Assembly (NCBI GenBank): GCA_964019135.1 | Contig: OZ025248.1 | Location: 35,767,670 to 35,831,669, forward strand | DNA from: Arenicola marina | Taxonomy: Eukaryota > Annelida > Polychaeta > Arenicolidae | Direction: 5' to 3' | Length of the DNA: 64,000 nt | In this document: positions 27,101 through 62,899 of the stretch, in pieces | Layout: each line of letters begins with the position of its first letter | Numbering within the stretch: the first letter of the stretch is position 1 | Translations under genes and position numbers: made by a program | The notes under the pieces: model-generated | Told to the model about the DNA's origin: nothing | What the model saw: only the letters and a program-made list of their open reading frames with translations | Databases searched by the model: none

Positions 27101-30100
27101 GTTCTGTGATAATGACTGTGTCAGTATTAGTGCGTGTAAACAAATCGTACAAGGTTTACGTGTGGTTAAGCACAGGCATTCACGACCTATTTATCTAATA
27201 TTGCTTTCACACATGTCTATGTCCGGGCACTGGACCCACCATTTCCTTTTCCTCTCCCAGGACGAGCGGCTCTTGCGTCTTCTCCCAGAGTCTGAGGGAC
27301 TTGTCGTGGGAGGCGGACACCAGGAAGTTACCGCTGGGGCTGAGGGCGATGGTCCACACCTCACCCTGGTGACCCTAGCGACACAGGGGAAACAGTCGTC
27401 AGTAACCATGGCAACCGTGTCACTTATACTAATACAGTAGTGAACACAACATTTGTAGAAGTCAGCGATGAATACAATAAACTCATACTCTGCGGCACGT
27501 CTACATAATGAACACCAACAGCGAACTATGACACAGAATTAACGATTCATGTTCACAATGAACTTGGTATTTCGGTTGAGTTCAGGTACAAAGAACAGAG
27601 GTAGGTAAAACTAAATCATTAAGGTAGACGTCGTTGTGTTACCATGGTGAAGGAGTTTCTGCAGCTCGTCATTGTTACCATGGTGAAGGTTTATCTGTAG
27701 CAGTCGTTATGTTACCATGGTGACGGTGTACTTGTAGCACGTCGTTGTGTTACTATGGTGAAGGTGTATATGTAGCACGTCGTTACCGTGGTGACGGTGT
27801 ACCTGCAGCACGTCGTTGTTAGTTACCATGGTGACGGTGTATCTGTAGGACGTCGTTGTGTTAGTTACCATGGTGACGGTGTATCTGTGGAACGTCGTTG
27901 TGTTAATTACCATGGTGAACGTGTATCTGTGGAACGTCGTTGTGTTACCATGGTGACGGTGTATCTGTAGCATTTGTTCGTTACCTTGAGAGTCTGTATC
28001 TGCTGGAAGGAGTCCCCGTCCCACTCCTTCACCATGCCATCCTTGCCCGCCGTGAAGAACATGTGAGTCTTGGGTACGAAATGGACGCTCATAATGCTGT
28101 AACCGGCAGGGAGACATGGAAATGATACATCAGATACATATATCTCTGGTCAACAGTGGTATGGGGGTTAACAACTGTATTGATTATAACTGAGCAGAAA
28201 GCTGACGGAACAACAAACTTGCGGCAAGCTTGCAGAATATTTTAACAACACTAATCCATTAGTAAGACCGTAACCTTGCTCCAGAAGATCTAGACGGGGT
28301 TGCAGGTAGGTAATTTAATACCTGATAAATGATAAATAATCCTTTATATAGGTCCAAATGAGAAAATAAAATGTTGCGACAAGTCAAGAATCGTTTATTT
28401 GATAACAAAGGCACAGTTGATATAGATCCAACAGCAACGGGAGCAGAACGTGGTTCATGATGCTAAAACCAATTTAGGATGGTTGGCGATGGAGTTCCTC
28501 AGATTTAGTACATAGTAACACGGCAAATGAACTAGAAATTACATGATATAGGTGCCGTCGGATCTAGGGATCTCACCTGTCGTCGTGTGCGAACATTGAC
28601 TTGTGGCAGTCCCCAAAGTCGAGGCCCCACAATTTGACGTTTCTGTCCGCAGACCCCGTCACGAGGAGCGCCCCGTCTGTCGATATGTCCATGCACAGTA
28701 CGGGCAGCTTGTGGCCGTACAGCGACAGGAAGAACTGAAGACACCAGAACACAGTGCATTACAAGTATTGTATCAGCCCTATATGTATGTCCGTGCACAG
28801 TACGGGCAGCTTGTGGCCGTACAGCGACAGGAAGGACTGAAGACACCAGAACACAGTGCATTACAAGTATTGTATCAGCCCTATATCTATGTCCATGCAC
28901 AGTACGGGCAGCTTGTGGCCGTACAGCGACATGAAGGACTGAAGACACCAGAACACAGTGCATTACAAGTATTGTATCAGCCCTATATCTATGTCCATGC
29001 ACAGTACGGGCAGCTTGTGGCCGTACAACGACAGGAAGAACTGAAGAAACCAGAACACAGTGCATTACAAGTATTGTATCAGCCCTATATCTATGTCCAT
29101 GCACAGTACGGGCAGCTTGTGGCCGTACAGCGACAGGAAGAACTGAAGACACCAGAACACAGTGCATTACAAGTATTGTATCAGCCCTATATGTATGTCC
29201 ATGCACAGTACGGGCAGCTTGTGGCCGTACAGCGACAGGAAGAACTGAAGACACCAGAACACAGTGCATTACAAGTATTGTATCAGCCCTATATCTATGT
29301 CCATGCACAGTACGAGCAGCTTGTGGCCGTACAGCGACAGGAAGAACTGAAGAAACCAGAACACAGTGCATTACAAGTATTGTATCAGCCCTATATGTAT
29401 GTTCGTGCACAGTACGGGCAGCTTGTGGCCGTACAGCGACATGAAGGACTGAAGACACCAGAACACAGTGCATTACAAGTATTGTATCAGCCCTATATCT
29501 ATGTCCATGCACAGTACGGGCAGCTTGTGGCCGTACAGTGACAGGAAGAACTGAAGAAACCAGAACACAGTGCATTACAAGTATTGTATCAGCCCTATAT
29601 CTATGTCCGTGCACAGTACGGGCAGCTTGTGGCCGTACAGCGACAGGAAGGACTGAAGACACCAGAACACAGTGCATTACAAGTATTTTATCAGCCCTAT
29701 ATGTATGTCCGTGCACAGTACGGGCAGCTTGTGGCCGTACAGCGACAGGAAGAACTTAAGAAACCAGAACACAGTGCATTACAAGTATTGTATCAGCCCT
29801 ATATGTATGTCCATGCACAGTACGGGCAGCTTGTGGCCGTACAGCGACAGGAAGGACTGAAGACACCAGGATACAATGCAAAACATTACTTTATCCCGAT
29901 ATACATCAACTTATGCTACAAAGCAAATTTCTGAAAATTCTCACATCAAAACAATACATGAGAGAGTAGACACATTTTTTTTTCTTAAACATAAAAAAGA
30001 ACACGACATGAGCTATCTAACAAAAGTGATTGCGATGTGAAATATCTGACAATGCTTTACCTTGAGCGTATCGGCGAAAAACACTTTGACAGTGTTGTCT

Positions 30101-37542: not shown

Positions 37543-39958
37543 AACTCACAATGGACAATCATGAGAATAAATCTGAAAAGACCAAGTTATACATATCAGG
37601 GTAAATTGAACAAAGTTGCCATTGTTTACAGGTACCATATAAAAATGTCTATAAATTTATAATTTTAGATAGTTCTGATGTAAATTTAATAGAATAGATG
37701 ACATAAAAAATAATGCAACAAAAGACCGGGGATAGGGGTACGCAGTTGCACAAAAAGGGGTGTGGGTAGCCACTTCAAGCTGTATGCTCTAACTGCCAGG
37801 ACACATTACTTTTCATTAATAATTGTTTGCAAGGTACCCACTTCTGTGAGAGTATCATTCTGTCAGTTAAAAAAGGATGTCTCCAGGCACCAAGATATGT
37901 GTGAGGTAAATGCATGGGGTACCAAAGGCAAAGAAATACATTCTGTTTGTGTTTACTTCCTTTACCTCTATACACATGTACAGTAAATCACCAGAGAGAA
38001 AGGGCACATGTTTCATCTCTATATGCATGAACAGATATCTATAACCTGATAATACAATGTACCAAATGATTGCCTTTGGGTAGCCCTATATGACATTGTT
38101 GTTTTCACAGAATAAAGCTATAAAATCCTAAAATGTAATGCTCAAACATAAGTGGCAAGAAGTGATTATGATGATGAGTTTTTTTTTAGTGTGGCAAAAG
38201 TTTGTGGAAGTATGTATCTGGCAACTTACATTACAATTTGGTTAAAGTCTGTGATTATGGTGACATCCTTTATTGTTTGTCAAGTATCCAGTAGATATAA
38301 ATTTTAAGTATCATAGTACCAAATGATAATAGTTCAATGATTTGTAACATTAAGAACACTTAGTCAGCTATGCAAACAAATCTTACACCAGCCTTTCCTG
38401 CTTGTTGATATAAGATTGTATAGAGCAATAACTATCTCACTTGGCACTAGCCTTTGGATATCAATGAATAATATAATATGTATCACATTATATTTTACTC
38501 TATGTTAGAAACCTGGCATAATAGACAATTTATTTTCTTTTAATGATTACCAAATAACCAGACACGCTGTCGATGAAGTGATAACAGAGCCAAAAATTGC
38601 AGATAATTTGCTAATGTGTTGTTCACACCCTCGCTGTGGCTCGTCATCTAAACCTTCCACCCCCAACTAGCCTGCACTTAATATGACCCCAACCCCTACA
38701 CCTGCCAACTCCTGCCCAGGCTTCCCTAACCAGCACCAATCTTCAGCCCCCTTCTCCTCCCACCCTGGCTGGCGAAATTTTTACAAGGGTGCAACAGGCG
38801 ATATTAGTCATTTAAGTAATAGCCCTTGACAGAAGTGGATATAACTCGGTCAAAATGATACTAAATAAATTGCATTTTCATTTAGAGCTTTCAATTAAAT
38901 AAGTTTTTCTGATCACATTGATTATATGTATGTACCTGCCACCATCTTTACTACAAAAACCCTCTTCTGATTTTCCAAAGTTTTCCGTAGGATTCCAGGG
39001 CCAGTGTAAATGCCTGATATACTTTGGATCCTTCCGATCTTTTTTCGATCTACAGATTACGATGGGGCGATGTTAAAAAGAGTGGTTTATATGGATAGAA
39101 TACATATTCATTGATATTATACTCAGTTTTCAGGAAGGGGGATCTAGTGGCACGAAACCAGCTAGGAGTATTTTTCAGTTACGGCGGTTTCAGTTTTTTT
39201 TCTTGCGCTCTGGAACGTCTGACAACAATTCTACCACGCAAAATTAACGCTAATATCTTTTCCTGCAAGTTATATTGGTAAGAGAGTATTGTACAATGTA
39301 TAGATTTACTTAAGCGATGCAAAACGTCCCGAGTGTTATTGTCGCTTCGCTCTGCTAATGAGCGGGATGCGCTTGGAAGCCAGACGCTGTCGGTGGTAGC
39401 CACAGCGGCTTGCTTGCAGGACTAGGATTCCATAAGTATTCTGTGTTTTATGGAGGACTGCCCTAGACAGCTGCTGGAGTTGGACACATATAGAGGACAC
39501 ATAGTGCTATAGATGAATAATTGGCGCCTGCCCCTATCCCCGTTGATTTGCTGTGTCTGTGCCTCCCTTTGCGATGGCCTCAGTTTAGCAGTTTCTGTGT
39601 GACTGTGACACTGTGAGTAAGACTAGAAATTTAGGATAGAGATAAATGCTAGTTACCCTTATTATCGCTCAATAATTACAATCTGTTTATATTGAATATT
39701 TACACAGGGTTTCACTCTAACTATTATCCGATCCACATAAAAAGAAAGATATAATGAAAGTCGTCATCAATTGAAGATTAAAACCACCAAAATGTAAATA
39801 TAATACATGGTCAAAACCCCTACTCACATCGTACACGCCAACACGGTCAGCGCTGGATTTCCAAACCCTCCCACATGTGGACATCAATAAGATTTAACCA
39901 ACGACATTTTTCAAGTGATTCAAAATAAGAAGTGTTAGAGTGAGTGTTGGCGCGCGCT
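37543..39958. other. WDR3 5' flank; no gene seen
   Basis: Upstream of the WDR3 start codon. AT-rich with no recognisable exon or clear TATA/initiator arrangement that I can defend, and no long repeats. A mildly GC-richer patch at about 39180-39470 carries no supported ORF. Confidence 0.45.
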
Positions 39959-40109
39959 GGAGTCTGCCAGTTACGAATTACCAGTTATGGTCTGCCACTT
40001 ATGGAGAGAGCCGCGGCGTATGCCAGTTACTGTCTGTCTGCCACTTATACCGGGGAGCGAGGCGGGGGGAGGGGGGGGGGGGCGCTATATTATACATGAG
40101 TAATAATGT

Positions 40110-42187
40110 TCCACGGCACCAGCCGTCTCCCAATCTACCACTTACGCTAATTAGACTCTTTGGGGCCCAGGGCCAGGGCGAAATTAGGCAATGTATATGG
40201 TGGGAAACCGCCTCCTTACCCACCAGAGATGCATTTCCTCTCAATATGGGGCCTTTCTGTCCAAATTTATAACCAGCCCAACTCCCTAGCACTGGCCGAC
40301 TCCCAATCTGCCACTTACGCAAATTGGACTCTTTGGGGCACAGGGCAAAATTGGGCATTGTATATGGTGGGAAACTGCCTCCCTACCCACCGGAGATGCA
40401 TTTCCTCTCAATATGGGGCCTTGTTATCCAATTTTATAAGCAACCCTATTCCCTAGCACTGACCGACTCCCAATCTGCCACTTATGCAAATTGGACTCTT
40501 TGGGGCAAAGGGCAAAATTGGGCAATGTATATCGTGGCAAAGCGCCTCCCTACCCACCAGAGATGCATTTCCTCTCAATATGGGGCCTTTCTGTCAAAAT
40601 TTATAAGCAACCCTATTCCCAAGCACTGGCCGACTCCCAATCTCCCACTTACGCAAATTGGACTCTTTGGGTCCCAGGGGGAAGTTAAGCAAAGTATATG
40701 GTGGGAAATCCCTTCTCTGCCCACAAGAGATACATTTCCTCCCAATATAGCGCCTTTCTCTCCCATTCCATAAGCAAACCTATTCCTCAGCACTGACCGA
40801 CTCCCAATCTGCCACTTACGCAAATTGGACTCTTTGGGGCACAGGGCAAAAGTGGGCAATGTATATGGTGGGAAACTGCCTCCTTACCCACCAGAAATGC
40901 ATTTACTCTCAATATGGGGCCTTTCTATCCAATTATATAAGCAACCCTATTCCCAAGCACTGACCGACTCCCAATCTGCCAATTACGAAAATTGGACTCT
41001 TTGGGGCACAGGGCAAAATTAGGCAATGTATATGATGGGAAACCGCCTCCTTACCCACCAGAGATGCATTTCCTCTCAATATGGGGCCTTTCTGTCCAAT
41101 TTATATCGAGCCCTATTCCCCAGCACTGGCCGACTCCCAATCTGCCACTTACGCAAATTCGACTCTTTGGGGTCAAGGGCAAAATTAAGCAATGTATTGG
41201 ATGAGAAACCACCTCCCTGTCTACCAGAGATACATTTTCTTTCAAAATAGGGCCTTTCGCTCCCATTTCCAAAGCAACCCTATTCCCCAGCACTGGTGGA
41301 CTCTCAATTTGCCACTTACGCAAATTGGCCTCTTTGGGGCCCAGGGGGAACTATGCAATGTATATGATGGTAAACCATATCCCCGGTCACAAGAGATGCA
41401 TTTCCTCACAATATGGGGCCTGTCTATCTCATTCCATCGGCAGACTTATTCCCCAGATCTGGCCGACTCCCAATCTGCCACTTACGCAAATTCGACTCTT
41501 TGGGGTCCAGGGCAAAATTAAGCAATGTATTGGATGAGAAACCACCTCCCTGTCTACCAGAGATACATTTTCTTTCAAAATAGGGCCTTTCGCTCCCATT
41601 TCCAAAGCAACCCTATTCCCCAGCACTGGTCGACTCTCAATCTGCCACTTACGCAAATTGGCCTCTTTGGGGCCCAGGGGGAACTATGCAATGTATATGA
41701 TGGTAAACCATATCCCCGGTCACAAGAGATGCATTTCCTCACAATATGGGGCCTTTCTATCTCATTCCATCGGCAGACTTATTCCCCAGATCTGGCCGAC
41801 TCCCAATCTGCCACTTACGCAAATTCGACTCTTTGGGGTCCAGGGCAAAATTAAGCAATGTATTGGATGAGAAACCACCTCCCTGTCTACCAGAGATACA
41901 TTTTCTTTCAAAATAGGGCCTTTCGCTCCCATTTCCAAAGCAACCCTATTCCCCAGCACTGGTCGACTCTCAATCTGCCACTTACGCAAATTGGCCTCTT
42001 TGGGGCCCAGGGGGAACTATGCAATGTATATGATGGTAAACCATATCCCCGGTCACAAGAGATGCATTTCCTCACAATATGGGGCCTTTCTATCTCATTC
42101 CATCGGCAGACTTATTCCCCAGATCTGGCCGACTCCCAATCTGCCACTTACGCAAATTTGACTCTTTGGGGCCCAGGGCGAAATTAA
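40110..42187 (+). repeat. 167-bp satellite-like array, left arm
   Basis: About 12.5 units. Anchor CCGACTCCCAATCTGCCACT starts at 40296, 40463, 40630, 40797, 40964 and 41130, i.e. every 167 (once 166) bases. From 41192 to 42187 a 333-bp dimer is repeated three times almost identically. Frames of up to 149 codons here are artefacts. Confidence 0.95.
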
Positions 42188-42191
42188 GCTA

Positions 42192-45100
42192 CAGTTTTGC
42201 TACAGTTAGGAGGAGCTAAAAAGAACTCACTGGTCGAACTTTTAAACCCCAATAATGGTAATATCCGAGATGTAGACCCTGCTAACCAATATATTCAGCA
42301 TTCTCCGTATTATGAGTTAGATCAATTGGATCCTGTTCTGCAAAACAGGACCGATGATTTTTCCATTCTTAGTATGAATGTGGCCAGTATCAATGCCAAG
42401 ATCGATGAACTTCAAATAATGATTGATATGTTATATAAGCAAAATATTGTATTTTCCGCTTTATGTATACAAGAGTCCTGGTTAACCGACATGTCAGATA
42501 CATCCCTATTTCATATTGAGGGATATACACTTATATCCAAAGGTAAAACTTGCAGTGAGCATGGTGGGCTAATGATATATTTAAAAGATACTCTAAGCTT
42601 CACGGTCCTAGATATTCCTATTGATTCTGAAATTTGGGAAGGTCAATTTATAAAGGTAAAGGGATCTGATAAAACTATTATACTAGGAAATATATATAGG
42701 CCACCATGCGACATTAATGAAAATTACTGGACCTTTACTGAGGAATTTTCAAAAATCTTATCTCTCTTTGAGAGAAAGAGCGGTGAATTATTAGTAACCG
42801 GAGATTTCAATATTGACTTACTTCAAATCAATGAAAAAGCAGCATTTAGTAATTATTTTGACACTATCACATCCCTTGGCTTTTTCCCAAAGATTACATT
42901 TCCAACAAGACTTTCAAAGTATAAAGGAACCCTTATAGATAATTTTCTGGTACGAATATCTCCTGCCATGCAATCTGCTGTTTCTGGTATTTTAGTGAAA
43001 TCGATTTCAGACCACTTCCCGTATTTCCTCAGCCTAGACTTACAGCAAAAGGCATCGAGGAAATCACCCGCATACGTCACAATTAAAAATAATGACCCTG
43101 CTACAATTAATTTGTTTACTGATCATGTGGTAGATTTTGATGTGTTTAGTAGACTGAACCATGAAATGGGAACTGATCCTAACCTAAATTACGATATCTT
43201 ACAGGATATCTTAGTAAAATCTAAAGAAATGTTTTTGTCGGATAAAGTTGTGAAGTTTAATAAAAAAAAGCATAAAATGTCGAACTGGATTTCGAACGGT
43301 ATCATCAAATCTATTGCATTTAAGGATCGACTGTATAAGAAACTTAAGACGACTCCGTCTACCAGTTCACAATATAATACGTTAAAAATAAATTTTAAAA
43401 CTTATAATAATATCTTAAAACAATGTATTCGTACCGCAAAAAAAGATTACTATTATAATTACTTCGATAAGTGTAAGGGGGATATAAAAAGAACGTGGCA
43501 AGCGATTAACACAGTCCTGAATAACAATAGGGCGAAGAATAAATCATTGCCTGAGGAATTTAGCATAAATAGAGAACTTATTAGTGACAAAGTAGTCGTA
43601 ACAAATACTTTTAATGCATTCTTCTCTTCTGTTGGTTCGACAGCCTGTGAAGGACTTCGAACTGAAGACCATCCCTCTTTCTCTCAATACCTTGGATCGC
43701 CGGCTACTTCCAAAATGAACTTTGAGCTTATAAACAAAGCAACAGTTGAAAAAACCATCGATGGTCTCAAACCTAAACAAAGCACTGGGGATGATGGGCT
43801 ATCTGTGAAACTACTTAAGGTATTAAAATTCGATCTAAGTGAGTCACTGGCCTTAATCATTAATCAATCGCTTTCTACAGGAATATTCCCTGACAAATTG
43901 AAAATTGCAAAGATAACTCCGGTTTTTAAGAAAGGAGATGCTTCCAATATCGACAATTATAGACCCATCTCCGTTCTGCCTGCAATTTCAAAGGTATTTG
44001 AAAAGATTATTTATGATCAAATCTATGATTATTTCCAGAAAGAAAAATTATTTTACAATGGTCAATATGGTTTCAGAAAGAAACATTCCACCCAGCTTGC
44101 CGCGCTTGAATTAGTTGATCGAACTCTGCAAAAGCTGGACGAGGGCGAGGTTCCTATCAGTATATATCTGGATCTGTCGAAGGCGTTTGACACTTTAAAT
44201 CATAACATTCTTATCCATAAACTAAAACACTATGGTCTATCTGAACCAGCTATTTCTTTGCTAACGTGTTATCTCACAAATCGTTATCAATATGTGCACT
44301 TGGGAGATGTTAAATCAAATGTAACGAAAATATCTCGAGGGGTACCTCAGGGCTCTATTCTGGGTCCCTTGCTATTTATTATTTATGTAAACGACATGTC
44401 ACGCGCCAGTCAGCTATTTAGAGCTATTGTATATGCTGATGATACCACTCTGTGTAGCACGTTGACTGCGTCATCGTCTGATAACATGCTGGTTGATGAT
44501 ATATTAAACGACGAACTCTCTAAGATATACGGTTGGCTATGTGCAAACGAGTTATCGCTTAACGTTTCCAAAACCAAATTTATGATATTTTGTATGCCGC
44601 GAAAAATTGTTAGAATTCCGCGTTTATTCATAAATAACATACCTGTCGAGTGCGTAGAAGAGTTCGATTTTTTGGGTCTGACAGTTCAGAAAGATCTCAA
44701 GTGGAACGGTCATATTAATAAGATATCTTCAAAAATATCAAAGGTTATCGGGGTAATGAGTAAGTTAAAACATGCAGTTCCATCCTATGTTTTGAAAATT
44801 ATTTACAACTCTTTGATCCTACCCCATTTACACTATAATGTTCTGGCATGGGGCTTCCAAGCTGATCGTATAAGGTTATTGCAGAAAAAGGTGATTCGCA
44901 TCATAGCAAAGGGTTCATATCTTTGTCATACGGAACCATTATTTAAGCAATTAAGTGTGTTGAAGCTGACAGACATAATGTTCTCTCAACAACTGAAATT
45001 TTATTACAAGCATTTCCACGGGGATCTACCAGATTACTTTTTAACTGATATGCCTATCTCCAAAGTGTCGGATCTTCATAACTATGACACAAGACAAAAG

Positions 45101-45638
45101 GATGACCTGCTAGTTGCACGGGTAAAACATAAGTTTGCTGAACAATGTTTAAGATATCGATTTGCTAGAAATATAAACGAAACACCTGATATTATATTAG
45201 ATAAGGTCAAAACTCATGAATTGGACGGATTTTCAAAATATGTCAAACAGTTCTTGCTTAATAGGTATTCATTGGTATGTGATATGGTTAATTGTTATAT
45301 TTGCCAAAGAAATAATTAGAATATAAGAGGTCTCCCCCTTTGTTTACTTCTCGGTAAGAGCGACGTGTTAATATTTCATCTAATTCCCTCAAGACTCTCG
45401 CCTTTACATATACTTAATATAACTTTGTATCTTTGTGATGACGCGATGATTTTTTGTTGTTGTTTTTTTTTTTTTTTTTTTTCTTTTTTTCGTTTTTTTT
45501 CTTTGGTGGCTCCTATGCCAGCGGCCCTCGTGGTCTTAATGGGAGTCCCCAGAGCGAGAATTTTCTACGTTGCCATGTTTTTTGCCATCTAATGTTTGTA
45601 GTGGTTCTTGCTCAAATAAATGACATTGAATTGAATTG
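42192..45638 (+). mobile_element. LINE (APE-type non-LTR retrotransposon) inserted in the 167-bp array
   Basis: The element is flanked by a perfect 10-bp duplication AATTAAGCTA (42182-42191 and 45639-45648). On removal, the repeat unit is restored. The 3' end has a (GAATT)-type short repeat and an AATAAA, as in CR1/L2/Crack-like members of the jockey superfamily. The 3' UTR holds a long T-tract at about 45465-45500. There is no ORF1 and the ORF is already open at the junction, so the copy is probably 5'-truncated. Confidence 0.93.
42197..45319 (+). CDS. LINE ORF2: endonuclease plus reverse transcriptase
   Basis: Uninterrupted 1040-codon frame. It opens without ATG at the insertion junction; the first in-frame ATG is at 42374. 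The APE endonuclease spans residues ~56-280, with SMNVASINAK, CIQESW, GNIYRPP, VTGDFNID and SISDHFP catalytic or active-site motifs all present. The reverse transcriptase spans ~550-830, with NYRPISVLP, LDLSKAFDTLNH, GVPQGSILGPLLF and the catalytic YADDTT (residue ~745). The C-terminal part is divergent and carries only a CYICQ remnant at the end. The protein would nick target DNA and reverse-transcribe its own RNA. All key residues I can check are intact, so this is a young copy. Confidence 0.93.
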   Translation: MLQLGGAKKNSLVELLNPNNGNIRDVDPANQYIQHSPYYELDQLDPVLQNRTDDFSILSMNVASINAKIDELQIMIDMLYKQNIVFSALCIQESWLTDMSDTSLFHIEGYTLISKGKTCSEHGGLMIYLKDTLSFTVLDIPIDSEIWEGQFIKVKGSDKTIILGNIYRPPCDINENYWTFTEEFSKILSLFERKSGELLVTGDFNIDLLQINEKAAFSNYFDTITSLGFFPKITFPTRLSKYKGTLIDNFLVRISPAMQSAVSGILVKSISDHFPYFLSLDLQQKASRKSPAYVTIKNNDPATINLFTDHVVDFDVFSRLNHEMGTDPNLNYDILQDILVKSKEMFLSDKVVKFNKKKHKMSNWISNGIIKSIAFKDRLYKKLKTTPSTSSQYNTLKINFKTYNNILKQCIRTAKKDYYYNYFDKCKGDIKRTWQAINTVLNNNRAKNKSLPEEFSINRELISDKVVVTNTFNAFFSSVGSTACEGLRTEDHPSFSQYLGSPATSKMNFELINKATVEKTIDGLKPKQSTGDDGLSVKLLKVLKFDLSESLALIINQSLSTGIFPDKLKIAKITPVFKKGDASNIDNYRPISVLPAISKVFEKIIYDQIYDYFQKEKLFYNGQYGFRKKHSTQLAALELVDRTLQKLDEGEVPISIYLDLSKAFDTLNHNILIHKLKHYGLSEPAISLLTCYLTNRYQYVHLGDVKSNVTKISRGVPQGSILGPLLFIIYVNDMSRASQLFRAIVYADDTTLCSTLTASSSDNMLVDDILNDELSKIYGWLCANELSLNVSKTKFMIFCMPRKIVRIPRLFINNIPVECVEEFDFLGLTVQKDLKWNGHINKISSKISKVIGVMSKLKHAVPSYVLKIIYNSLILPHLHYNVLAWGFQADRIRLLQKKVIRIIAKGSYLCHTEPLFKQLSVLKLTDIMFSQQLKFYYKHFHGDLPDYFLTDMPISKVSDLHNYDTRQKDDLLVARVKHKFAEQCLRYRFARNINETPDIILDKVKTHELDGFSKYVKQFLLNRYSLVCDMVNCYICQRNN

Positions 45639-45850
45639 AATTAAGCTATGTATTTGATGGGAAACCACCTCCCTGGCTACCAGAGATACATCTTTCAATA
45701 TAGGGAATTTCTCCCCCATTCCAGAAGCAACCCTATTCCCCAGCACTGGCCGACTCACAATCTGCCGCTTACGCAAATTGGACTCTTTGGGGTCCATACG
45801 GAAATTAGGCAATGTATATGATGGGAAACCATCTCACTGGGCACCAGGTT
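45639..45850 (+). repeat. Left-arm 167-bp array resumed after the LINE
   Basis: The interrupted unit continues directly after the duplicated target site. About 1.3 units follow before similarity ends near the phrase GGGCACCAGG. Confidence 0.85.
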
Positions 45851-46640
45851 CACAGGGTATTACGTAATAAATTGTGGGATTGTAAACTTTGGGAGGGTTG
45901 CAGGAATAAATTGTCCCCCGCTCTCTAATTTTGCCCATAACAACAATCCGTTCATCGTGGATGGTACACTGCTGGCCAAGGATTTCGTTCGCAGTTCATA
46001 ATCAATCGAGCATATGAACACTCAGTCAGGGGAAATGTATGGTTTATAACTTCAGTCATTTAAAGAAAGAAGTAATAGTTTATTTTTACTTTTTTTATAC
46101 CACTCGAGTCTTGGTATTATATCGTCGTTAGAAATATTTAAAAAGATTATCGCGCGAGTGTAACCTATTTCCGTTTTGCACTTTACAAAAGGGTTACCTT
46201 TTTGTGAAATAGAAAATTGAAAAAGGGAAAATTCAGCTTTTGTAATGTTCAGAAGCAAAAGGAAAAACGAACAAACGGTATATCCAAGGATTTATCACAA
46301 CCGAAACGGCGATGATTATTAGGTTTCTGTATATATAGATTGTAACAATCGAGTTTCTGCAAATTGTGATATATATATATCGCCTGGGCTTAGATTTGGC
46401 GGGAAAAGCTCGATAAGTAGCTTTAAGTGCTTGAATAACAATGTTGTTTCGCATAGAATTATACACTGCTGTATAACACGTGAATGTGAAGAAAAAGATG
46501 AAAATCTCTTAAGTGATTACTATGAAGCCTTTACTTCAGGTCGAAGTTTAGGTCTTGGGCCCTGTAACCATTTATGGTGAACCATAAACGTATTTATGCG
46601 GTAGACCAATAAAGCGGACCTAGGCCTACTAACAAGCTCT
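45851..46640. other. Core of the 13-kb structure, no gene seen
   Basis: AT-rich unique-looking sequence with only short ORFs. It could be the original interior of the element. Confidence 0.4.
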
Positions 46641-46779
46641 ATGGGCACAAAATCATGCTTTTTACTTTCTCAGCTATTTACTACGCTTTTACGCTACACG
46701 CGTTTAGCATTGTCACAATACAACCTCTTATCAAAGGCGGAAAACAATCCCTCAATAATGGTGATAATTGTAGAGCTCA

Positions 46780-48742
46780 CTGGATGTTACAAGAGAAAAG
46801 CAGCGAAAGTCTAAGCACAGACAACTTACACTTCGGCTTTGCGTCAAGGAGCTCTACTAATGAACTTTTGCATTCTTAGAAACTGTCACATATCTTGTAA
46901 AAACCGATTCCCCTCCATATGTGCTACTGCTTGATGCATCTAAGGCTTCACATAAGGTAAATGATATAAAGTTATTCGACCTGTTGATAAAAAGAAACGT
47001 AAAAACATCTGGATACTGTTGCACCCTTGGTTATATGTACTGTGGTGCGTTCGGTTATGCAGTTTTTGTCTTACGTTTAATCCTTTGCTAATAATGCAGA
47101 ATTATACTTCAACAGTGAGATTGTCAAAACGGTAACAGGCGATATACCTCTCGTTCATATTATTGGCCCGAACGTCTCTAGTGACGTCAACAGCACATCA
47201 GGCGTCTTATGCGAACTGACGCGCCGCACGAATTATGTAATAGGCAATCACGTACTTGGTCCAAAGCCGCGTGTTATACAAAAGCATAATCCCCATAACT
47301 GGGGCCGCTCCTGTTTCTCATCTTTGTTAACGATATTGTGGAGGGCCTTGAATGCGAGGCTTATTTATTTGCAGATGACACGTCTCTCTTTTTGCACTAG
47401 ATTTTAATAATGATGTCGAAATCATTAATCGTGATTTAGAACGACTATCTCAGTGCGCCAAACAATGGCGGGTAACGTTCAATCCTGATAAAACTGAATA
47501 CATGGTGTTTAGCAAAAAGTTATCGCGACCAAATGATCTCGATCTATATCTGGACAATTCGAAGCTCCGGCAAGTAAGAAATCACTGTCACCTTGGTGTA
47601 ACCCTATCAGACTCAATGTGCTGGGACCTGCATATAAATAACACTATTATTAAGGCCGAGAAATCTGTTGCTCTACTAAAGCGTCTTCCTAAACAGGTAG
47701 GACGCAGAACTACATTAAATGTTTATAAAACATATGTTCGGCCTAAAATGGAATACTGTACTGCTGTCTTCCATGGCAATGTTACCAAAACCCAATCAGA
47801 GAGGTTGGAATGTGTACAGCGGCAAGCCCTTTGTCTGTTACTGGGGCAACCACTCGCTCTCAGACGTAAATGCATAAGTCTGTGCATTTTGTACAAAATG
47901 GTTAATAGTCTCACTCCGATGTATATGTCTTCACTATTACCTGTTTTGGTTTCCCAGTCTTCAGCATACTCACTACGGAACTCGTCTGACATAAGAATCC
48001 CGCATATAAAAAAATTATTACAAAAGTTCATTTGTCTGGAACTCAATCAGAGAGTGGAACTCCTTGCCACAGTGTTTTACACAGGCAACATCATTATCAC
48101 TTTTCAAGTCACTGTATAGGAAGTCATTTTCTTATCCCGGCAATGAATTGTACAACTATTTTAACAATCCTGAGGTTGTTCACCACACCAGACTCCGTTT
48201 GGGCTTGAGCGCACTTATTGGACCTCACAAAAGATACGGGTTTATTAAGGATTCTTATTGTAGCAAATGTAACGGGAAATCTGAAAACGAACTTACCTAT
48301 CTGTTAAAATGTCCAGAGTACGAGATGTATCGCGAAATCCTCATGTCAGACTTATCGTTTTTAAAATTGCATGGTATTAATATACATCCAGAAGGGAGAA
48401 ATTAATTTAATATCCTTTGTGAATTGTTGCTGTTCGGCCGCCCCGAGCTGTCTTTCGAAGACAACGTCGCTACAGGGCAGTTCATTTATTTATCCGCAAC
48501 TCAGCCAAGTTTTGTTGTTAAGTGTCATGGCGAACTCATAAATTATGTATTTGGTATTTATCTGAGTTTATAATATAATATATGCACTTCATATGTTGAC
48601 ATTACTATATTTATAGTATTACCTATTACCGTCCTTTGCTGTATATCCAATTTAATTTTTCTTTTCTTTTATGTTGAGGTGAGCATTAATATGTGTATTC
48701 GCTATTGCAAACCTCCAGAAATAAATGATAATTAAAAAAAAA
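46780..48742 (+). mobile_element. Decayed non-LTR retrotransposon (LINE) 3' half
   Basis: Reverse-transcriptase fragments in several frames: FGFASRSSTNELLHS near 46837; LLDASKAS near 46932; LGPLLFLIFVND and LFADDTSLF near 47300-47390; then a 205-codon open stretch (47502-48119) with thumb-region sequence, e.g. KTEYMVFSKKL. A downstream frame has LRLGLSALIG and a CSKC/LKCPEYE cysteine cluster typical of LINE C-termini. It ends in an A-run at 48732. At least three frame changes or stops interrupt it, so it is inactive. It differs from the LINE at 42192. Confidence 0.85.
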
Positions 48743-49200
48743 AGCCCCATAACCACCGACATGTTATGGGCAGAACAAGGGGTATTTGCCTTCCTCGGGA
48801 ATAAGCTTTTCATTTCACCGTGAACTGGGAAATGAGGAAATTAATTCTTCGCGAACTGGGAATGAGGTATTAGCCGACCCTCGTGATCAAAGATTTCCTC
48901 TTAGTGTGAACTGGAAATTTTGATATTAAATAGCCCGGAATCGGGACACCGCCAATTTATATAATACATCGGCCCTCATTATTGTATGCAGGGAGTTCAT
49001 CTTTTAATTCACCGTGAAGTGTGAATAAAGAAATTTATTATTCGTGATCTGAGAACATTAGCCCCCCCCCCTCCCCCCTGTATACTGTCAACTGGTCAAC
49101 TGTCAATAAAGTGGTACCATATATCCCACCTGCTGTGTTCGATTTGGCGAATTTATGAACAAGGAGCTGCGGACTCATAGCAACAATACCCAGCAAGCCA
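48743..49200. other. No gene; weak internal repeat
   Basis: A diverged duplication: TTTCACCGTGAACTGGGAA at about 48815 resembles ATTCACCGTGAAGTGTGAA at about 49006. There is no coding signal. Confidence 0.35.
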
Positions 49201-49460
49201 AACCACGTGGCGTTTTCTTTGCGCACGCGTTACTTGGCCACGTGGCCACAATGCGTTTTGTAATGGTAGCTGGAACGTGGCTACCACGTGGTGAAATCAC
49301 GTTTAAAATACCACGTGGCCACGACGCGATTTTGTATGGTAACTGGAACGTGGCTACCACGTGGCGAAATCACGTAGAAATACCACGTGGCCTCGACGTG
49401 ATTTTGTATGGTAGCCGGAACGTGGATATATCACGTGGCCACGACGTGATTTTTTTTTTG
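49200..49460. repeat. CACGTGG-rich degenerate tandem repeat
   Basis: Seven exact CACGTG boxes (49204, 49239, 49285, 49312, 49358, 49384, 49432) lie in a ~72-bp degenerate repeat. Its other words are GGAACGTGGCTAC and GATTTTGTATGGTA. Confidence 0.8.
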
Positions 49461-49547
49461 TAACTGACGTTACCCCATGTAATGTATAAATATTTAATGA
49501 TACTATTATATCCATGCATGTCATACTTATGCAAAAAATACGAAAAA

Positions 49548-49640
49548 ACACAGATTGCTCAGATATAGCTCTAACAATTTATTCATTAATTATTACCAAA
49601 AAACACAGACTGTTCAGATATAGCTCTAACAATTTGTTTA
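49548..49640 (-). repeat. 55-bp duplication of the 3' end of the zinc-finger ORF
   Basis: CAGATATAGCTCTAACAATT occurs at 49559 and again at 49614, 55 bp apart. The higher-coordinate copy is inside the zinc-finger ORF and the other lies just past its stop. Confidence 0.75.
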
Positions 49641-49828
49641 TTTAACCGGCCTCCCATATGTCTCAGAAGGAGGTGTTTCCTGAGTATGGCATCCGTTCCA
49701 GGCTTTGACTTGGACCCTGTACGGGAATCACACAGATTACATTCGAAACCTTCGCTCGCCAGAACCACCTGGTCCAGCCAGGCTCCGCGGCCATTTCTTT
49801 CGAAATGCGATTGGCGTTTCGCAATCAT
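49586..49828 (-). CDS. Small zinc-finger ORF or terminal exon inside the 13-kb structure
   Basis: 80 codons from ATG at 49828 to TAA at 49586. The ATG directly follows an acceptor-like TTGCAG, so this may be a last exon rather than a whole gene. It contains CNLC and HLLLRH spaced like a single C2H2-type finger with a long loop. A basic N-terminus (MIAKRQSHFERN) precedes it. AATAAA follows within a few bases of the stop (49578-49583). It could be a remnant of the element's own protein. I do not recognise the family. Confidence 0.4.
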   Translation of the reverse strand: MIAKRQSHFERNGRGAWLDQVVLASEGFECNLCDSRTGSKSKPGTDAILRKHLLLRHMGGRLNKQIVRAISEQSVFFGNN

Positions 49829-49904
49829 CTGCAAATGAATACATAACAATTAATTACAGTTGGAAAAAAAAAATTTCCCACTAATTATCTTGGTTTGTTT
49901 CACC

Positions 49905-51737
49905 CTTGGCCCCCACAGAGTCAGATTTTCGTAAGTGGCAGATGGGGAATTAGCGATTGGGTATGAAAGTTGGGTTATTTTGGCATGGCAAGGGCCTACA
50001 TGTCTAGAGAAGTGTTTTTCTACGCATTAGATTAGCATTAGCGACGAAAATATAAGATTTCGGTCATTAAGAAGACGATGTTTACATATATGAATTATTC
50101 TATTAAATTAAAAATTAAAAAGATGTTTCTATTTGCCTATGCATTTTAGTTTTGGGAGGGAAGTCACATCAAAGGAAAATACCAACGTATATATAGTCCA
50201 ATTTGCGTAAGTGGCAGATTGGGAGTCGGCCAGTGCTGGGGAATAGGGTTGTTTATGGAATGGGATAGAAAGGCCCCACATCGAGAGAAAAATGCATCTC
50301 AAGTGACTAGGGAGATGGTTTCCCATCATATACATTGCTTAATTTCCACCTGGGCCCCAAAGAGTGCAATTTGCGTAAGTGGCAGACTGGGAGTCGGCCA
50401 GTGCATGCCCAGGAATAGGGTTGCTTTTAAAATTGGATAGAAAGGCCCCATATTGAGAGGAAATGCATCTCTGCAGGGTAGGGAGGCAGTTTCCCACCAT
50501 ATACATTGCCCAATTTTGCCCTGTGCCCCAAAGAGTCCAATTTGCGTAAGTGGCAGTTTGGGAATCGGCCAGTGCTGGGGAATAGGGCTCCTTATAAAAT
50601 TGGATAGAAAGGCCCCATATTGAGAGGAAATGCACCTCTGGTGGGTAGGGAGGCGGTTTCCCACTATATACATTGCCCAATTTTGCCCTGTGCCCCAAAG
50701 AGTCCAATTTGCGTAAGTGGCAGATTAGGAGTCGGCCAGTGCCTAGGAATAGTGTTGCTTATAGTATTGGATAAAAAGGCCCCATATTGAGAGGAAATGC
50801 ATCTCTGGTGGGTAAGGAGGCGGTTTCCCACCATATACATTGCCCAATTTTGCCATGTGCCCCAAAGAGTCCAATTTGCGTAAGTGGCAGATTGGGAGTC
50901 GGCCAGTGCCCAGGAATAGGCTTGCTTATAAAATTGGATAAAAAGGTCCCATATTGAGAGGAAATGCATCTCTGGTGGGTAAGGAGGCGGTTTCCCACCA
51001 TATACATTGCCCATTTTTGAACTGTGCCTCAAAGAGTCCAATTTGCGTAAGTGGCAGATTGGGAGTCGGCCAGTGCTGGGGAATAGGGCTCCTTATAAAA
51101 TTGGATATCAAGGCCCCATATTGAGAGGAAATGTATCTCTGGTGGGTAAGGAGGCGGTTTCCCACCATATACATTGCCCATTTTTGAACTGTGCCCCAAA
51201 GAGTCCAATTTGCGTAAGTGGCAGATTGGGAGTCGGCCATTTCTGGGGAATAAGGCTCCTTATAAAATTGGATAGAAAGGCCCCATATTGAGAGGAAATG
51301 CACCTCTGGTGGGTAGGGAGGCGGTTTCCCACCATATACATTGCCCAATTTTGCCCTGTGCCCCAAAGAGTCCAATTTGCGTAAGTGGCAGATTAGGAGT
51401 CGGCCAGTGCTGGGGAATAGGGCCGCTTATATAATTGGATAGAAAGGCGCCACGCGGAGAGGAAATGCATCTCTGGTGGGTAGGGAGGCGGTTCCCCACC
51501 ATATACATTGCCCAATGTTGCCATGTGCCCCAAAGAGTTCAATTTTCGTAAGTGGCAGATTGGGACTCGGCCAGTGCCGGGAAATAGGGCTCCTTATAAA
51601 ATTGGATAAAAAGACCCCATATTGAGAGGAAATGCATCTCTGGTGGGTAAGGAGGCGGTTTCCCACCATATACATTGCCCATTTTTGCCCTGTACCCCAA
51701 AGAGCCCAATTTGCGTAAGTGGCAGATTGGGAGCCAG
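49905..51737 (-). repeat. 167-bp satellite-like array, right arm (inverted)
   Basis: About 10.5 units in reverse orientation relative to the left arm. Anchor GTCGGCC lies near 50225, 50393, 50563, 50731, 50898, 51065, 51232, 51399 and 51566. The outermost inner unit (about 49905) is diverged. Minus-strand frames of 80-149 codons are artefacts. Confidence 0.95.
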
Positions 51738-51738
51738 C

Positions 51739-52592
51739 TAGCCGCAGACTCCCCTCTGGGTCGTAGATTCAACCATACACACGCCATTAGAAAATGCCAA
51801 GTTCGGCAGTTCGGGTCAAAGCGCTCGTTCGTTTCACAATGTCTCGCCTTTTTAACTTCATATCTTGATAAAGTTATCTTTAATTAAACGACTTATCTAG
51901 TTTTCGCTTGCATATGTACCGGTTTAGTCTATATTCTTGCCACCAAAAACAACACTTTCGACCTGCCTGGCTGATTCAAAACAAATGTCGGAGGACGGAA
52001 ATGGTTCGATGCGCATGACCGGAAAGAAGGTCACCGTAAAACTGCGTAGATGCAATGCGGCGCTCCTCATATGCCAGCGTGCACTTAACATTTTAATGAT
52101 GTAACACTCAAGTGAAAATGCACTCAGTGCTAAAAAAAGACCGAACAAATAAAGTTTTGTGCATAAATACAATTTGTTTCACCAAAATGGCAGCGTTAAA
52201 TAATAATAACATAAATTTAAAACATCAAGTGCACGATAATCAACCACATGCTGTTATTGGCTATAAGGAGCGCCACGTTGCATCTACGCAGTTTTACGGT
52301 GACTCTCTTTCCGGTCATGCGCATCACACCATTTCCGTCATCCGACATTTGTTTTGAATCAGCCAGGCAGGTTGAAGGTGTTGTTTTGGTTGCCAGAATA
52401 TAAACTAAATCGGTACATATGCAAGCAAAAATTCGATTAGTCGTTTAATTAAAGATAACTTTATCAAGATATGAAGTTAAAAAGGCGAGACATTGTGAAA
52501 CCATCGAGCGCTTTGCCCCGAACTGCCGAACTTGGCATTTTCTAATGGTGCGTGTTGGGTTGGGGGGAGGGGTTGAGGGGAGTCTGCGGCTA
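51739..52592. mobile_element. 854-bp foldback element with 9-bp target duplication
   Basis: The ends TAGCCGCAGACTCCC and GGGAGTCTGCGGCTA are inverted. The arms extend about 330 bp and share e.g. AAAATGCCAAGTTCGGCAGT and AACAAATGTCGGA. The centre of ~190 bp is AT-rich. It is flanked by GGAGCCAGC at 51730-51738 and 52593-52601, and removal restores a 167-bp unit. Long arms with 9-bp duplication suggest a non-autonomous Mutator-like (MULE) element, although the exact boundary can shift by one or two bases. Confidence 0.8.
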
Positions 52593-52730
52593 GGAGCCAG
52601 CCAGTGCTTGGGAATAGGGCTGCTTATAGAATTGGATAGAAAGGCCCCATATTGAGAGGAAATGAATCTCTGGTGGGTCGGGAGGCGGTTTGCCATGATA
52701 TACATTGCCATATTGTGGCGCATTGTTTCC
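52593..52730 (-). repeat. Last right-arm 167-bp unit after the foldback insertion
   Basis: Resumes at GGAGCCAGCCAGTGCTTGGG and runs to about TACATTGCCATATTG. About 0.8 unit, more diverged than the inner copies. Confidence 0.8.
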
Positions 52731-53125
52731 CACCATACAGCCACTCTGGTAGTACAGCCGTCGATCCTGTCCATAGGCATAGGCATAGCGACAGTAATCA
52801 GGTTGTGCTTATTTCTACTACATGAACATCCCTATTATCGCCCGCCAAAAAATAAACTAAACCCTGGAGCGAAATAGGGTTACGGTACCGGTGTGTCTCT
52901 ATGACCAGTCGAAACATGACCAGTGCGTTTTTCTTTTAACAAATTAATAATGCAAATTCTCCACATGTTAAACGAATACTCACTTAACTTGTCCCACCAT
53001 GTCCACCACGTAACTCTGCACGGGCCGCGAGTAGGACTCACTTCCCGAAGCACTTACAGAAACCGTTTCAACGGCTTCAGTAAGTGGCAGATATTGTAAC
53101 TGGAAGATCACAACTGGCAGACTCC

Positions 53126-53469
53126 GGCGCGAGAGATACACACTTGAAGTGTTATGGTCATTGCTTATGGTAAACGCCCATCACTATACGCATTGCGTGC
53201 AGCTATACTTAGCCATACAGAAATTAATTTGGGATGTGTGAATTGCTGATGCAGTTATATAAAATGAAATTCAGTTGAGGTATATTGGGTGCAATTTTGG
53301 TTTTTCATGTCCATACGTCACATTTATTGATTTGGTATTCAACTATATCAGGCCGGATTATACTAGTATGTGGGCCCACTTGGCCTTAACTTAGCGAAGC
53401 TTTGCATCCAGCAATTAATGAACCTTTTTTTTTGATCCGGCCAGCTTGCATTATGAGTAGACTAGAAGT
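53126..53469. other. No feature seen
   Basis: Flanking sequence right of the inverted structure. No gene or repeat is supported. Confidence 0.4.
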
Positions 53470-60217: not shown

Positions 60218-62899
60218 CTATCCAAAGTCCTTCAGTATGTGCCACTGGGCCACTGGCTGGCGGCTCTTGGCGAACATCTCGTTCCAGTGCTTGATTTCCA
60301 TTGGTCCACTCTTGCTGCCCAGGATCAGCTGACCAATCAGTTCGTTGCGACCCATTCTATCGTAGTCCATCACAGATATATTGAGGCTCGTCTGCCGTAT
60401 TCGCTCGTATGGAACGTTGAATATGAAAGACTCGTTAAAGACTGGGTTTAACGTCTTTTCCTTAATGATTGTCTTCTTTTTCTCGACTTTTCTCCCGTCG
60501 TGCATCAGCCATATTTTGACGTATGGATCTGCAGCAGTAAGCATGATATTAAACATCTCATCAATGCAATATATAATGATACCTCGACTTGGTCGAAGGC
60601 GTCGTTACACAAAAGTCACACGAGGAACCCATTCACTAAAAATAATGTGTAGCGGAATCCGAGGTATATCGATGACGTCATTAATCAATCAATATTGTAA
60701 TCGATAATATATATAAAAATCCGATCGAGCTGCCAATGACCAACTACAATACTTCTCTAAATATGCATTGATACATTTCTACATAAACACGATTGAATGT
60801 TAAATATATATATATCATCATTACATCCCTTGAATTACGTATTCTTGTGATTTATCTTAATTATTTAATTGAGCATAGCGCCGGGGACAATGATCTACCT
60901 GATAGGCCGTTGATATCTTTGGCTTTGAGTTCCCGGGCTTTAATGATGGTGACGGTGATACGACCCACAGCCGGTTGGTAGCACAGCGACAAAAGCAACT
61001 CACCCAGCTTACCCTGAGGAAAAACATAGAGCAAGATCAAGTCACGAGACTGCAGATAAAGTGCTTGAGAGACGCCAAGGAAAACATGGAGGTTGATCGA
61101 CAAGGAGGAGATTAACAGGCGGAAAAACACCAGACCTTGATTGATTTATAGTCAAAACATGGTTTTAGTCGATTAATTTGAGAGCGAAAACAGGAAAAAA
61201 TTAAGGCAATCAATCAAGTTGAGTCAATCAACTAGATTCTTTCTCGCTTATCTGGTTTCATGGTAGGTGAAAACAGAGGCAACTGAGAGGTCTTCCATCT
61301 TTAAAGGACCTACGCACGAACCGCTCTATACAGCACATGAAACGGTGAGAGGACTTCCATCTTAAAGGACCCACACACAGACCGCAATATACAGCACAGG
61401 AGACAGTGAGAGGACTTCCATCTTAAAGGACCCACACACAGACGGCAATATACAGCACAGGAAACAGTGAGAGGACTTCCATCTTAAAGGACCCACACAC
61501 AGACCGCATTATACAGCACAGGAGACAGTGAGAGGACTTCCATCTTAAAGGACCCACACACAGACCGCAATATACAGCACAGGAGACAGTGAGAGGACTT
61601 CCATCTTAAAGGACCCACACACAGACCGCAATATACAGCACAGGAGACAGTGAGAGGACTTCCATCTTAAAGGACCTACGCACGAACCGCTCTATACAGC
61701 ACAGGAGACAGTGAGAGGACTTCCATCTTAAAGAACCTACGCACGAACCGCTCTATACAGCACAGGAGACGGTGAAAGGATTTCCATCTTAAAGGACCGA
61801 CACACGGACCGCTCTATACAACATTGGAAATGCTTAAAGAACTTCCATCTTAAAGAACCGACAAACAGACCGCTCTATACAGCACAGGGACGGCGAGAGG
61901 ACTTTCATCTTAAAGGACCGACCGACCACACGACCGCGTTGAATTTCTGATTTCATTCAGATTATGGGCAACATGTTTTCAGGATTAAAAATCATTGATC
62001 TTCAAATTCCATTGCCAGCGTCTCCCACTGTGGCAAGCCAGAATAGCGACCAATGACGTCCAAGATATTTATCTTCGGCGTGACGTCACTGGGAAGGAGT
62101 CGCCGCCAGATGGCGTAATTGTATGATAACAGTGATCATCATTAACTTATCACTAACGTATTGTTGCTTCCTAAAATGGCGCCGACATTTTGATAGAGAG
62201 ACATCACGCGGGGATTACCGCCAATCGATACACCAATACCATCAATTATCGCTCATAACAATAAATATATTATTACATTATTTTACGGACTTGTATTATT
62301 GACGGTAATGGTACATGAAAGAGGGTTAATGCATTGTTCAGTAATTAGCAGCTGCATTCGACCTTTTAAGGAGAGTTGTAAGGCACTGACGTAAATAAGG
62401 GACTAGTCTGGAACACATGAGAGACCGATGAACGACCTTGTAAGTCAGGGACACATGAGAGTCAGAGGAATGACCCTGTAAGTCGACCTTGTAAGTCGCC
62501 CATGAGTCGTCAAAACAATGGCGCCAATTCCGATAGCGAATTGCTTATTATTATCCACGATAGCCGATATCCAATTTCTGAAAATTCGCCATACACGTTT
62601 AAAACAAGCCTTGCCGTCAATGACATTCAACCCAGTATCGACCCTAGGTGGCGCTAGTAACAAATCATAATAAGGGCCCCGAGAAACACGCCCTGATCCC
62701 CCCTCCACTGGCCGGACACATGGACTCACCGTGTGCCCCTTGCAGGGCTGGAGATGCTTCCACATGGTCTGGCCTTGGGCCAAGTCCACATCGCTGAGGG
62801 GGAGACAGATCTCCCCGATGGGGTCATCCCGACTGAAACGGTCGTAGTCTAGCACCTGCATGTACAGTGTTCTGCTCATTAGCTTGCTGTAGGGAAAAC
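60218..62899 (-). CDS. SYT7: Synaptotagmin-7-like, last three exons, 5' partial
   Basis: Membrane-trafficking Ca2+ sensor for vesicle exocytosis. Exons in transcript order: 62899-62730 (end of C2A), 61013-60899 (start of C2B) and 60528-60218 (rest of C2B to TAG), with GT-AG junctions and consistent phases. C2A contains [18 protein letters not shown] with its aspartates, then the linker QPCKGHT. C2B has [15 protein letters not shown], the loop-1 aspartates in [12 protein letters not shown], the polybasic VEKKKT, and loop 3 [13 protein letters not shown]. The last position of loop 3 is Glu where most Ca2+-binding C2B domains have Asp. The C-terminus [12 protein letters not shown] matches the family's WHxL motif. 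Residues such as [14 protein letters not shown] and [10 protein letters not shown] point to SYT7 over SYT1. I found no earlier exon up to 64000, so the transmembrane and first C2A exons are outside. Confidence 0.9.
61265..61930. repeat. 61-bp minisatellite in the SYT7 intron
   Basis: About 11 copies of a unit with GTGAGAGGACTTCCATCTTA and CTATACAGCACAGGAGACA. Central copies are nearly identical and edge copies diverge. It lies within the intron between the C2A and C2B exons. Confidence 0.92.
61931..62729. other. SYT7 intron, remainder
   Basis: No repeat or ORF of note apart from the readthrough of the C2A exon. No other exon is seen. Confidence 0.4.

Follow-up and report, generated by a model that had tools for sequence, protein, structure and literature searches.

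Within this stretch of Arenicola marina DNA lies a structure of about 13 kb with inverted edges and satellite-like arms, and the question that it raises is whether we are dealing with a transposon whose arms have become tandem arrays or with ordinary satellite DNA in inverted orientation. To answer it, the window, that is, the whole stretch of 64 kb that was analysed (C1:35767670-35831669), was considered together with the 867 Mb of genome searched. We conclude, with a probability of about 0.93, that the structure belongs to a family of non-autonomous DNA transposons with foldback architecture, of which it is one copy. The features that define such elements were found: inverted arms made of tandem repeats, conserved ends flanked by a target duplication whose length is constant, modular arms of variable length, and a middle that is mostly non-coding.

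The original prediction had placed the edges (GGAGTCTGCCAGTT) at 39959, where one starts on the + strand, and at 53125, where the other ends on the - strand, and both are there. The span of the element had to be corrected. Because an 8-bp target duplication, AAGTGTTA, sits on both sides of positions 39938-53146, we take these 13,209 bp as the window copy. The true ends are thus located 21 bp beyond the edges, since the outermost bases of the two sides are unlike each other and invisible as an inverted repeat. The opposite arrays of a 167-bp unit were recovered as described (40122-42189 on the left, 50192-51737 on the right), and the same applies to the recurrence of the edge motif in them: the 11 forward copies of CTGCCACTTA are all located in the left part, the 12 reverse ones all in the right part, and the motif was not found elsewhere in the 64-kb window. 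The arms are inverted with respect to each other, the longest ungapped pair measuring 929 bp with 89% complementarity. As to the interior, it was said to contain only a small zinc-finger ORF besides later insertions; that ORF is present, but there is also a core common to other copies. The LINE and the palindromic element found in the arms are later insertions. The former carries an ORF of 1040 codons (42197-45319) with reverse transcriptase and endonuclease domains, and has a TGAATTGAATT-type tail. The parts of the copy are collected in Table 1.

Table 1. Parts of the window copy and its target duplications, in window positions.
Feature	Position	Strand	Remarks
Left target-site duplication AAGTGTTA	39930-39937	.	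8/8 match with 53147-53154
Left end: GAGTGAGTGTTGGCGCGCGCTGGAGTCTGCCAGTT, then more motif copies (TGCCAGTT/TGCCACTT type)	39938-40121	+	
Left array, 167-bp unit, ~12.4 copies	40122-42189	+	
Later LINE insertion within left array	42190-45638	+	boundaries approximate
Left array, resuming past the LINE	45639-45847	+	
Shared core, first part	45848-47299	.	
Dispersed-repeat fragment within core	47299-48735	.	reverse-transcriptase-like by eye, no Pfam match
Shared core, second part	48735-50191	.	
87-codon ORF, C2H2-like spacing (by eye)	49586-49849	-	
Right array, 167-bp unit, inverted	50192-51737	-	
Later palindromic insertion	51738-52601	.	arms 51770-51948 and 52384-52562; boundaries approximate
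Right array, outer remnant past the palindromic insertion	52602-52714	-	
Right end, inward reading CAAGTGTGTATCTCTCGCGCCGGAGTCTGCCAGTT, three motif copies	52715-53146	-	
Right target-site duplication AAGTGTTA	53147-53154	.	

The edges of the window copy belong to a family, whose many copies occupy sites unrelated to each other. The exact 14-base edge was found 71 times genome-wide, compared with 2 for a reversed-pattern control, and a 19-mer edge with up to two mismatches was found 103 times, compared with 18 for the reversed pattern. Reading outward from many edges revealed constant and sharp outer ends, one being GAGTGAGTGTTGGCGCGCGCTGGAGTC and the other CAAGTGTGTATCTCTCGCGCCGGAGTC; these two differ, and therefore the inverted repeat starts ~14 bp inside them. 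In 26 of the 27 copies in which both ends could be read, one left-type and one right-type end were present; C8:8431, with a disrupted second end, and those copies for which no second end was found do not form part of this set. The 8-bp duplication matched at 8/8 positions in 14 of the 27 copies and at 7/8 in 3, while none of 702 mismatched flank pairings, used as control, reached 7/8. The ninth base beyond the duplication matches in 5/14 of the perfect copies on one side and in 2/14 on the other; being mostly unmatched, it sets the length of the duplication at 8. It should be noted that the remaining 10 copies, with 6/8 matches in one and at most 4/8 in nine, count against the transposon reading. 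They may be recombinants or wrong pairings, as for example C1:14620, which was paired over 47.7 kb. The inverted edges, expected by the original prediction at a spacing of 5-20 kb, were found 2.4-37 kb apart among the 17 copies with a good duplication, and the DNA transposon that it proposed is borne out by many copies with consistent edges, by the 8-bp duplication and by a core present in 12 of 15 copies. In the 17 good duplications, A is favoured at positions 2 and 3 (9/17 each). The copies C2:52328 and C14:20171 are inserted within ~3 bases of the same spot of the same genomic repeat (...TGTAATTCACACCCGGTT...), which could possibly reflect a target preference.

The alternative that the arms bring to mind is ordinary satellite DNA in a chance inverted block, with edges that would be satellite variants. 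The arms are indeed true tandem arrays, with up to 155 unit matches per arm. Even so, we regard this explanation as very improbable, and it was rejected on the array clusters, the edge counts and the duplications. A stand-alone satellite elsewhere in the genome, which the original prediction had set against its own proposal, was not what we observed: by inspection, an element end is present at 24 of 24 array clusters (29 of the 112 candidates were scored, and the cluster C5:15362283 was viewed only from where the array match begins). Furthermore, in 17 of the 27 copies the 8-bp duplications adjoin the ends exactly, and 12 of the 15 copies compared have the core in common.

Evidence for the movement of the transposon as a unit comes from comparisons between loci. 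The window copy and its sibling on contig 10 (C10:29066335-29074059) are surrounded by unrelated flanks and have different perfect duplications, AAGTGTTA and GCAAAGAC, respectively. They have in common a 4-kb stretch (97%) that includes the dispersed-repeat fragment of the core, a fragment also matched, at up to 89-90%, by many other genomic sites. The left arrays of both can be aligned along 2.1 kb (90.7%); against this, the unit-by-unit best matches between the left array of the window copy and the sibling do not follow strictly the same order. The LINE is absent from the sibling, which is continuous across that point, and consequently the LINE is younger than the split of the two copies. 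In another case, the joined flanks of C2:52328 match C1:19893250-19893410, which is element-free through the junction (83%, query bases 26-191). The latter is a diverged relative, in which 5/8 target bases match and a small gap is located nearby. The right flank of C2:52328 coincides with the border of a common repeat, and among the 40 matches listed for this search 38 correspond to the right flank only and one to the left flank itself.

Another aspect to consider is the relation between the arrays and the ends. The best conserved 12-mers of the 167-bp unit cover AATCTGCCACTTACG, with a value of ~0.98 compared with a mean of 0.90 over 607 full-length units. Since this model was built from motif-picked units of the fetched copies, the analysis was repeated after placing the cut of the bare unit at two different positions, and both re-cut models (535 and 557 units) presented the same best conserved motif. 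In the ends, with one mismatch allowed, there are 5 motif sites in the left 160 bp and 3 in the right 420 bp, and the copies begin at a spacing of 14-16 bp. Beyond the motif, the similarity between unit and ends is weak, as 10/300 and 3/300 shuffles reach the observed score, a point to be set against our reading. We propose that a transposase made at another locus would bind CTGCCA(G/C)TTA both at the ends and within the arrays, would cut at the outer ends and would insert the element with an 8-bp stagger. The extra motif copies in the arms would raise the local occupancy of the transposase, and unequal exchange within each array would lengthen or shorten the arms between transpositions.

The two arms do not appear to derive from each other. 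Units of the same arm type differ between elements by 15.3% (left) and 11.5% (right), and units of opposite arms differ by 18.3% in one element and by 17.7% across elements. Arm-to-arm copying as the origin of the arms was rejected on these last two values. When the nearest relative of each unit was determined, it came from an arm of the same type 573 times out of 600, and from the opposite arm of the unit's own element twice. Because the units are closest to those of the same arm type and not to those of the opposite arm, the left and right arrays are, to judge from the units, two old and separate lineages carried by transposition, not mutual copies.

Apart from the arrays, the typical order of the family is an end region (~170 or ~430 bp), an array, a core of ~2-3 kb, an inverted array and the other end region. 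The core diverges by a median of 5.5%, ranging from 1.1% to 16%, over 187 pairs drawn from 21 sequences; for this estimate the repeat-rich part was masked and only pairs sharing more than 400 sites were kept. The modules can be missing: C336:191, of 2.4 kb, has ends and arrays, no core, and a perfect duplication; C10:29066 has no right array and still a perfect duplication; and C2:48075 has the ends but is without arrays, core or duplication. No long frame was observed in the core of the 11 copies checked, and no recognisable relic of a transposase was found in the core. Two other candidates for coding capacity were discarded, namely the long frame of C10:40875116, which spans a stretch of N, and the frames of C5:12275, which are nothing but an insertion, DIRS-like by eye and with all Pfam matches below the cut-off.

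The zinc-finger-like ORF finds a match in 20 of the 25 sequences fetched. Genome-wide, its peptide gave 41 matches, some of which are fragments of a single copy; its sole Pfam match is below the cut-off. A functional gene was rejected, since the variants look unconstrained in 14 aligned copies. The 44 distinct variants comprise 8 synonymous, 32 non-synonymous and 4 stop changes, compared with 11.2, 31.2 and 1.6 expected without constraint; for this count, 6 of the 20 matched sequences were dropped (two gapped, four represented by short pieces only). Close to the right array, the core of the window copy also contains an isolated partial 167-bp unit of ~80 bp (49872-49951), and a piece of this kind is present at the matching core place in many of the fetched copies. 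It is possibly a relic of the origin of the arrays.

Copies with similar cores allow us to follow how the arrays change in length. In four copies with cores 1.1-1.4% apart, the left-type arms measure 3.7 kb (C8:8431), 6.8 kb (C1:5820), 10.5 kb (C4:18802) and 25.7 kb (C8:21112). The duplication is perfect in C4:18802, 7/8 in C8:21112 and absent in C1:5820, and C8:8431 is outside the scoring. In C8:21112, a copy of 36.8 kb, the left-type arm consists of blocks of 106 and 49 units, giving the 155 unit matches (151 full units). Its outer units 0-8 are found in the same order in both C8:8431 and C4:18802, and also, although interrupted by gaps, in C1:5820, and its innermost units 147-150 are in the same order in C1:5820 and C8:8431; the comparison with C4:18802 rests on 45 of its 61 matches listed. 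Furthermore, 217 near-identical unit pairs were observed within C8:21112, the commonest offsets being 42, 17, 34 and 21 units. This pattern is consistent with growth of the central part of the array, through the duplication of blocks or through unequal exchange, while its edges are retained, and the simpler reading of C8:21112 is that it has grown in place rather than moved at full size.

No transposase was found within any copy in the KDZ, MULE, P-type and hAT searches, which counts against the transposon reading. To look for a source nearby, 100 of the 103 counted edges were compared with the matches of these families genome-wide (at least 34 for KDZ, 103 for MULE, 43 for P-type and 22 for hAT). 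Within 15 kb of the 100 edges there were none of the at least 34 KDZ matches, none of the at least 103 MULE matches (150 of 197 candidates scored) and none of the at least 22 hAT matches, and a single one of the at least 43 P-type matches, at C20:6063, on the outer side of an element end. There, on the minus strand and in this order, are a THAP domain (7085-7399, E 3.9e-8) and a P-type RNase H domain (6066-6416, E 1.4e-8). The gene runs toward a left-type end of the family located 2.4 kb away, and just outside this end, at C20:3672-3814, there is a piece 72.5% like core bases 1247-1397. No second end of the family was seen in C20:1-7500. The THAP/P-type gene may be the source of the family, into which a copy jumped, or it may be there by chance; it is our best lead.

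Because this THAP domain was found, our opinion of a P-superfamily foldback, similar to Galileo and with a THAP-type source not caught inside matching ends, was raised, to the level of a tentative assignment short of even odds. An 8-bp duplication fits the expected 7-8 bp, the long and internally repetitive arms of Galileo contain extra transposase sites (PMC3688188), and the C20 gene has both domains near a left-type end with its core-like piece. Nevertheless, this gene is outside the element and lacks the second end over the interval mentioned, the other 42 of the at least 43 P-type matches lie at distances of at least 82 kb from an edge or in contigs for which none is listed, and the core has no recognisable transposase relic. 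A MULE/Phantom-type foldback, as Tm1 is, or as Tetris would be following the suggestion of its authors, seems unlikely: foldback architecture is common there (PMC3169594; PMC4079207), and at least 103 MULE matches are present in the genome, but the duplication is of 8 bp here and of 9 bp in Tm1, and the nearest MULE match is 37 kb from an edge (150 of 197 candidates scored). We find a non-autonomous hAT or KDZ element distinctly unlikely. The 8-bp duplication would agree with it, but no listed hAT or KDZ match lies within 15 kb of an edge. The target signature of hAT elements is nTnnnnAn. It was not seen here, with T at position 2 in 2/17 and A at position 7 in 4/17 of the good duplications. 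That the family represents an undescribed superfamily, characterised by 8-bp duplications, an inverted repeat ~14 bp inside two unlike ends and satellite-sized arrays of transposase sites that are functional and not a by-product, is improbable in our opinion.

Pogo elements generate a TA duplication. A pogo-like DDE_1 frame in C10:32991 was rejected as the source, the locus having two right-type ends and no duplication. In C10:32991326-33001240, the frame beside the DDE_1 frame has a PHD match just below the cut-off, and a part of the DDE frame, with no Pfam match, bears by eye what we take to be a resemblance to OTU protease.

With regard to known elements, the TU elements of the sea urchin have inverted arms with tandem repeats, a short repeat unit and an 8-bp duplication. 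The non-autonomous foldback family of Arenicola is TU-like in its tandem-repeat inverted arms and 8-bp duplication, and unlike TU, in which the unit is short and the host belongs to another group. For sea-urchin foldback elements, the paper on Tetris cites Lieberman et al. 1983 (PMC4079207). It is Tetris, from Drosophila virilis, that presents the nearest known layout within the literature searched. As described (PMC4079207), Tetris is non-autonomous and consists of a flanking domain, an array and a middle domain without coding capacity; its repeat has a short stretch in common with the outer domain, its arrays outgrow to satellite, and foldback transposons are one proposed source of satellites. 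The Arenicola family is likewise non-autonomous, with the order end region, array and non-coding middle, with a short motif that recurs in unit and ends, and with arrays of satellite size. However, its unit is of 167 bp and that of Tetris of ~220 bp, the two being set apart here by their descriptions; its duplication is of 8 bp compared with 8-10 bp; and its arm reaches 25.7 kb in an end-bounded copy, compared with up to 1,735 bp in the three complete Tetris copies described (PMC4079207). In addition, 24/24 array clusters carry an end here (29 of 112 scored), whereas Tetris arrays occur also alone, and in the Arenicola family the left and right arrays are separate lineages.

In Galileo, also from Drosophila, the THAP-domain sites in the tandem repeats of the arms were proposed to give binding specificity (PMC3688188), and in D. 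willistoni 1 of 191 copies has tandem repeats, with 4-kb arms (PMC4168063). Long arms, internal tandem repeats and a duplication in the 7-8 bp range are shared with the Arenicola family, in which the role as transposase sites is putative. In contrast, Galileo has a known THAP transposase, and its left and right arms are nearly identical. Tm1, a Mutator/foldback element of root-knot nematodes (PMC3169594), is similar in its composite inverted arms of variable length and in having groups of elements without transposase; it differs in its 9-bp duplication, which is of 8 bp here, and in its Phantom-like transposase. The Arenicola family differs from known foldbacks in arm size, arm independence and ends. 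In the literature searched, with Repbase, Dfam and most subscription papers outside it, we found no annelid element of this kind and no relative nearer than Tetris, Galileo, Tm1 or TU. The term undescribed, used in the original prediction, is suitable only in part, since the foldback architecture and a Tetris-like layout were already in print (PMC4079207).

The origin of satellites has long been debated. The bounded copies of different ages make the growth of the arrays traceable, and the family, in which one arm reaches about 26 kb, illustrates how satellite DNA can be produced by a transposon. It also provides a natural experiment on the effect, favourable or adverse, that additional transposase sites in the arms have on transposition.

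Some minor observations are worth mentioning. The palindromic insertion of the window (51738-52601) has arms 90-92% complementary, its ends are TAGCCGCAGACTCC...GGAGTCTGCGGCTA, and a 9-bp repeat, GGAGCCAGC, is seemingly present on both sides by eye; this apparent repeat would point to a foldback MITE of MULE-like type. Minisatellites are abundant in the window, with arrays at 22480-24523, 28684-29880 and 61284-61919 and units of 39, 102 and 61 bp, respectively. The mitochondrial COX1, located on contig C762, has an open frame with genetic code tables 4, 5 and 9; to judge from its conserved residues, it probably follows table 5 and seems to be of annelid type. Finally, in C7:34854136-34858886 a related pair of edges, 4 kb apart, surrounds a different, GC-rich minisatellite, and this locus may represent a cousin family with another repeat.
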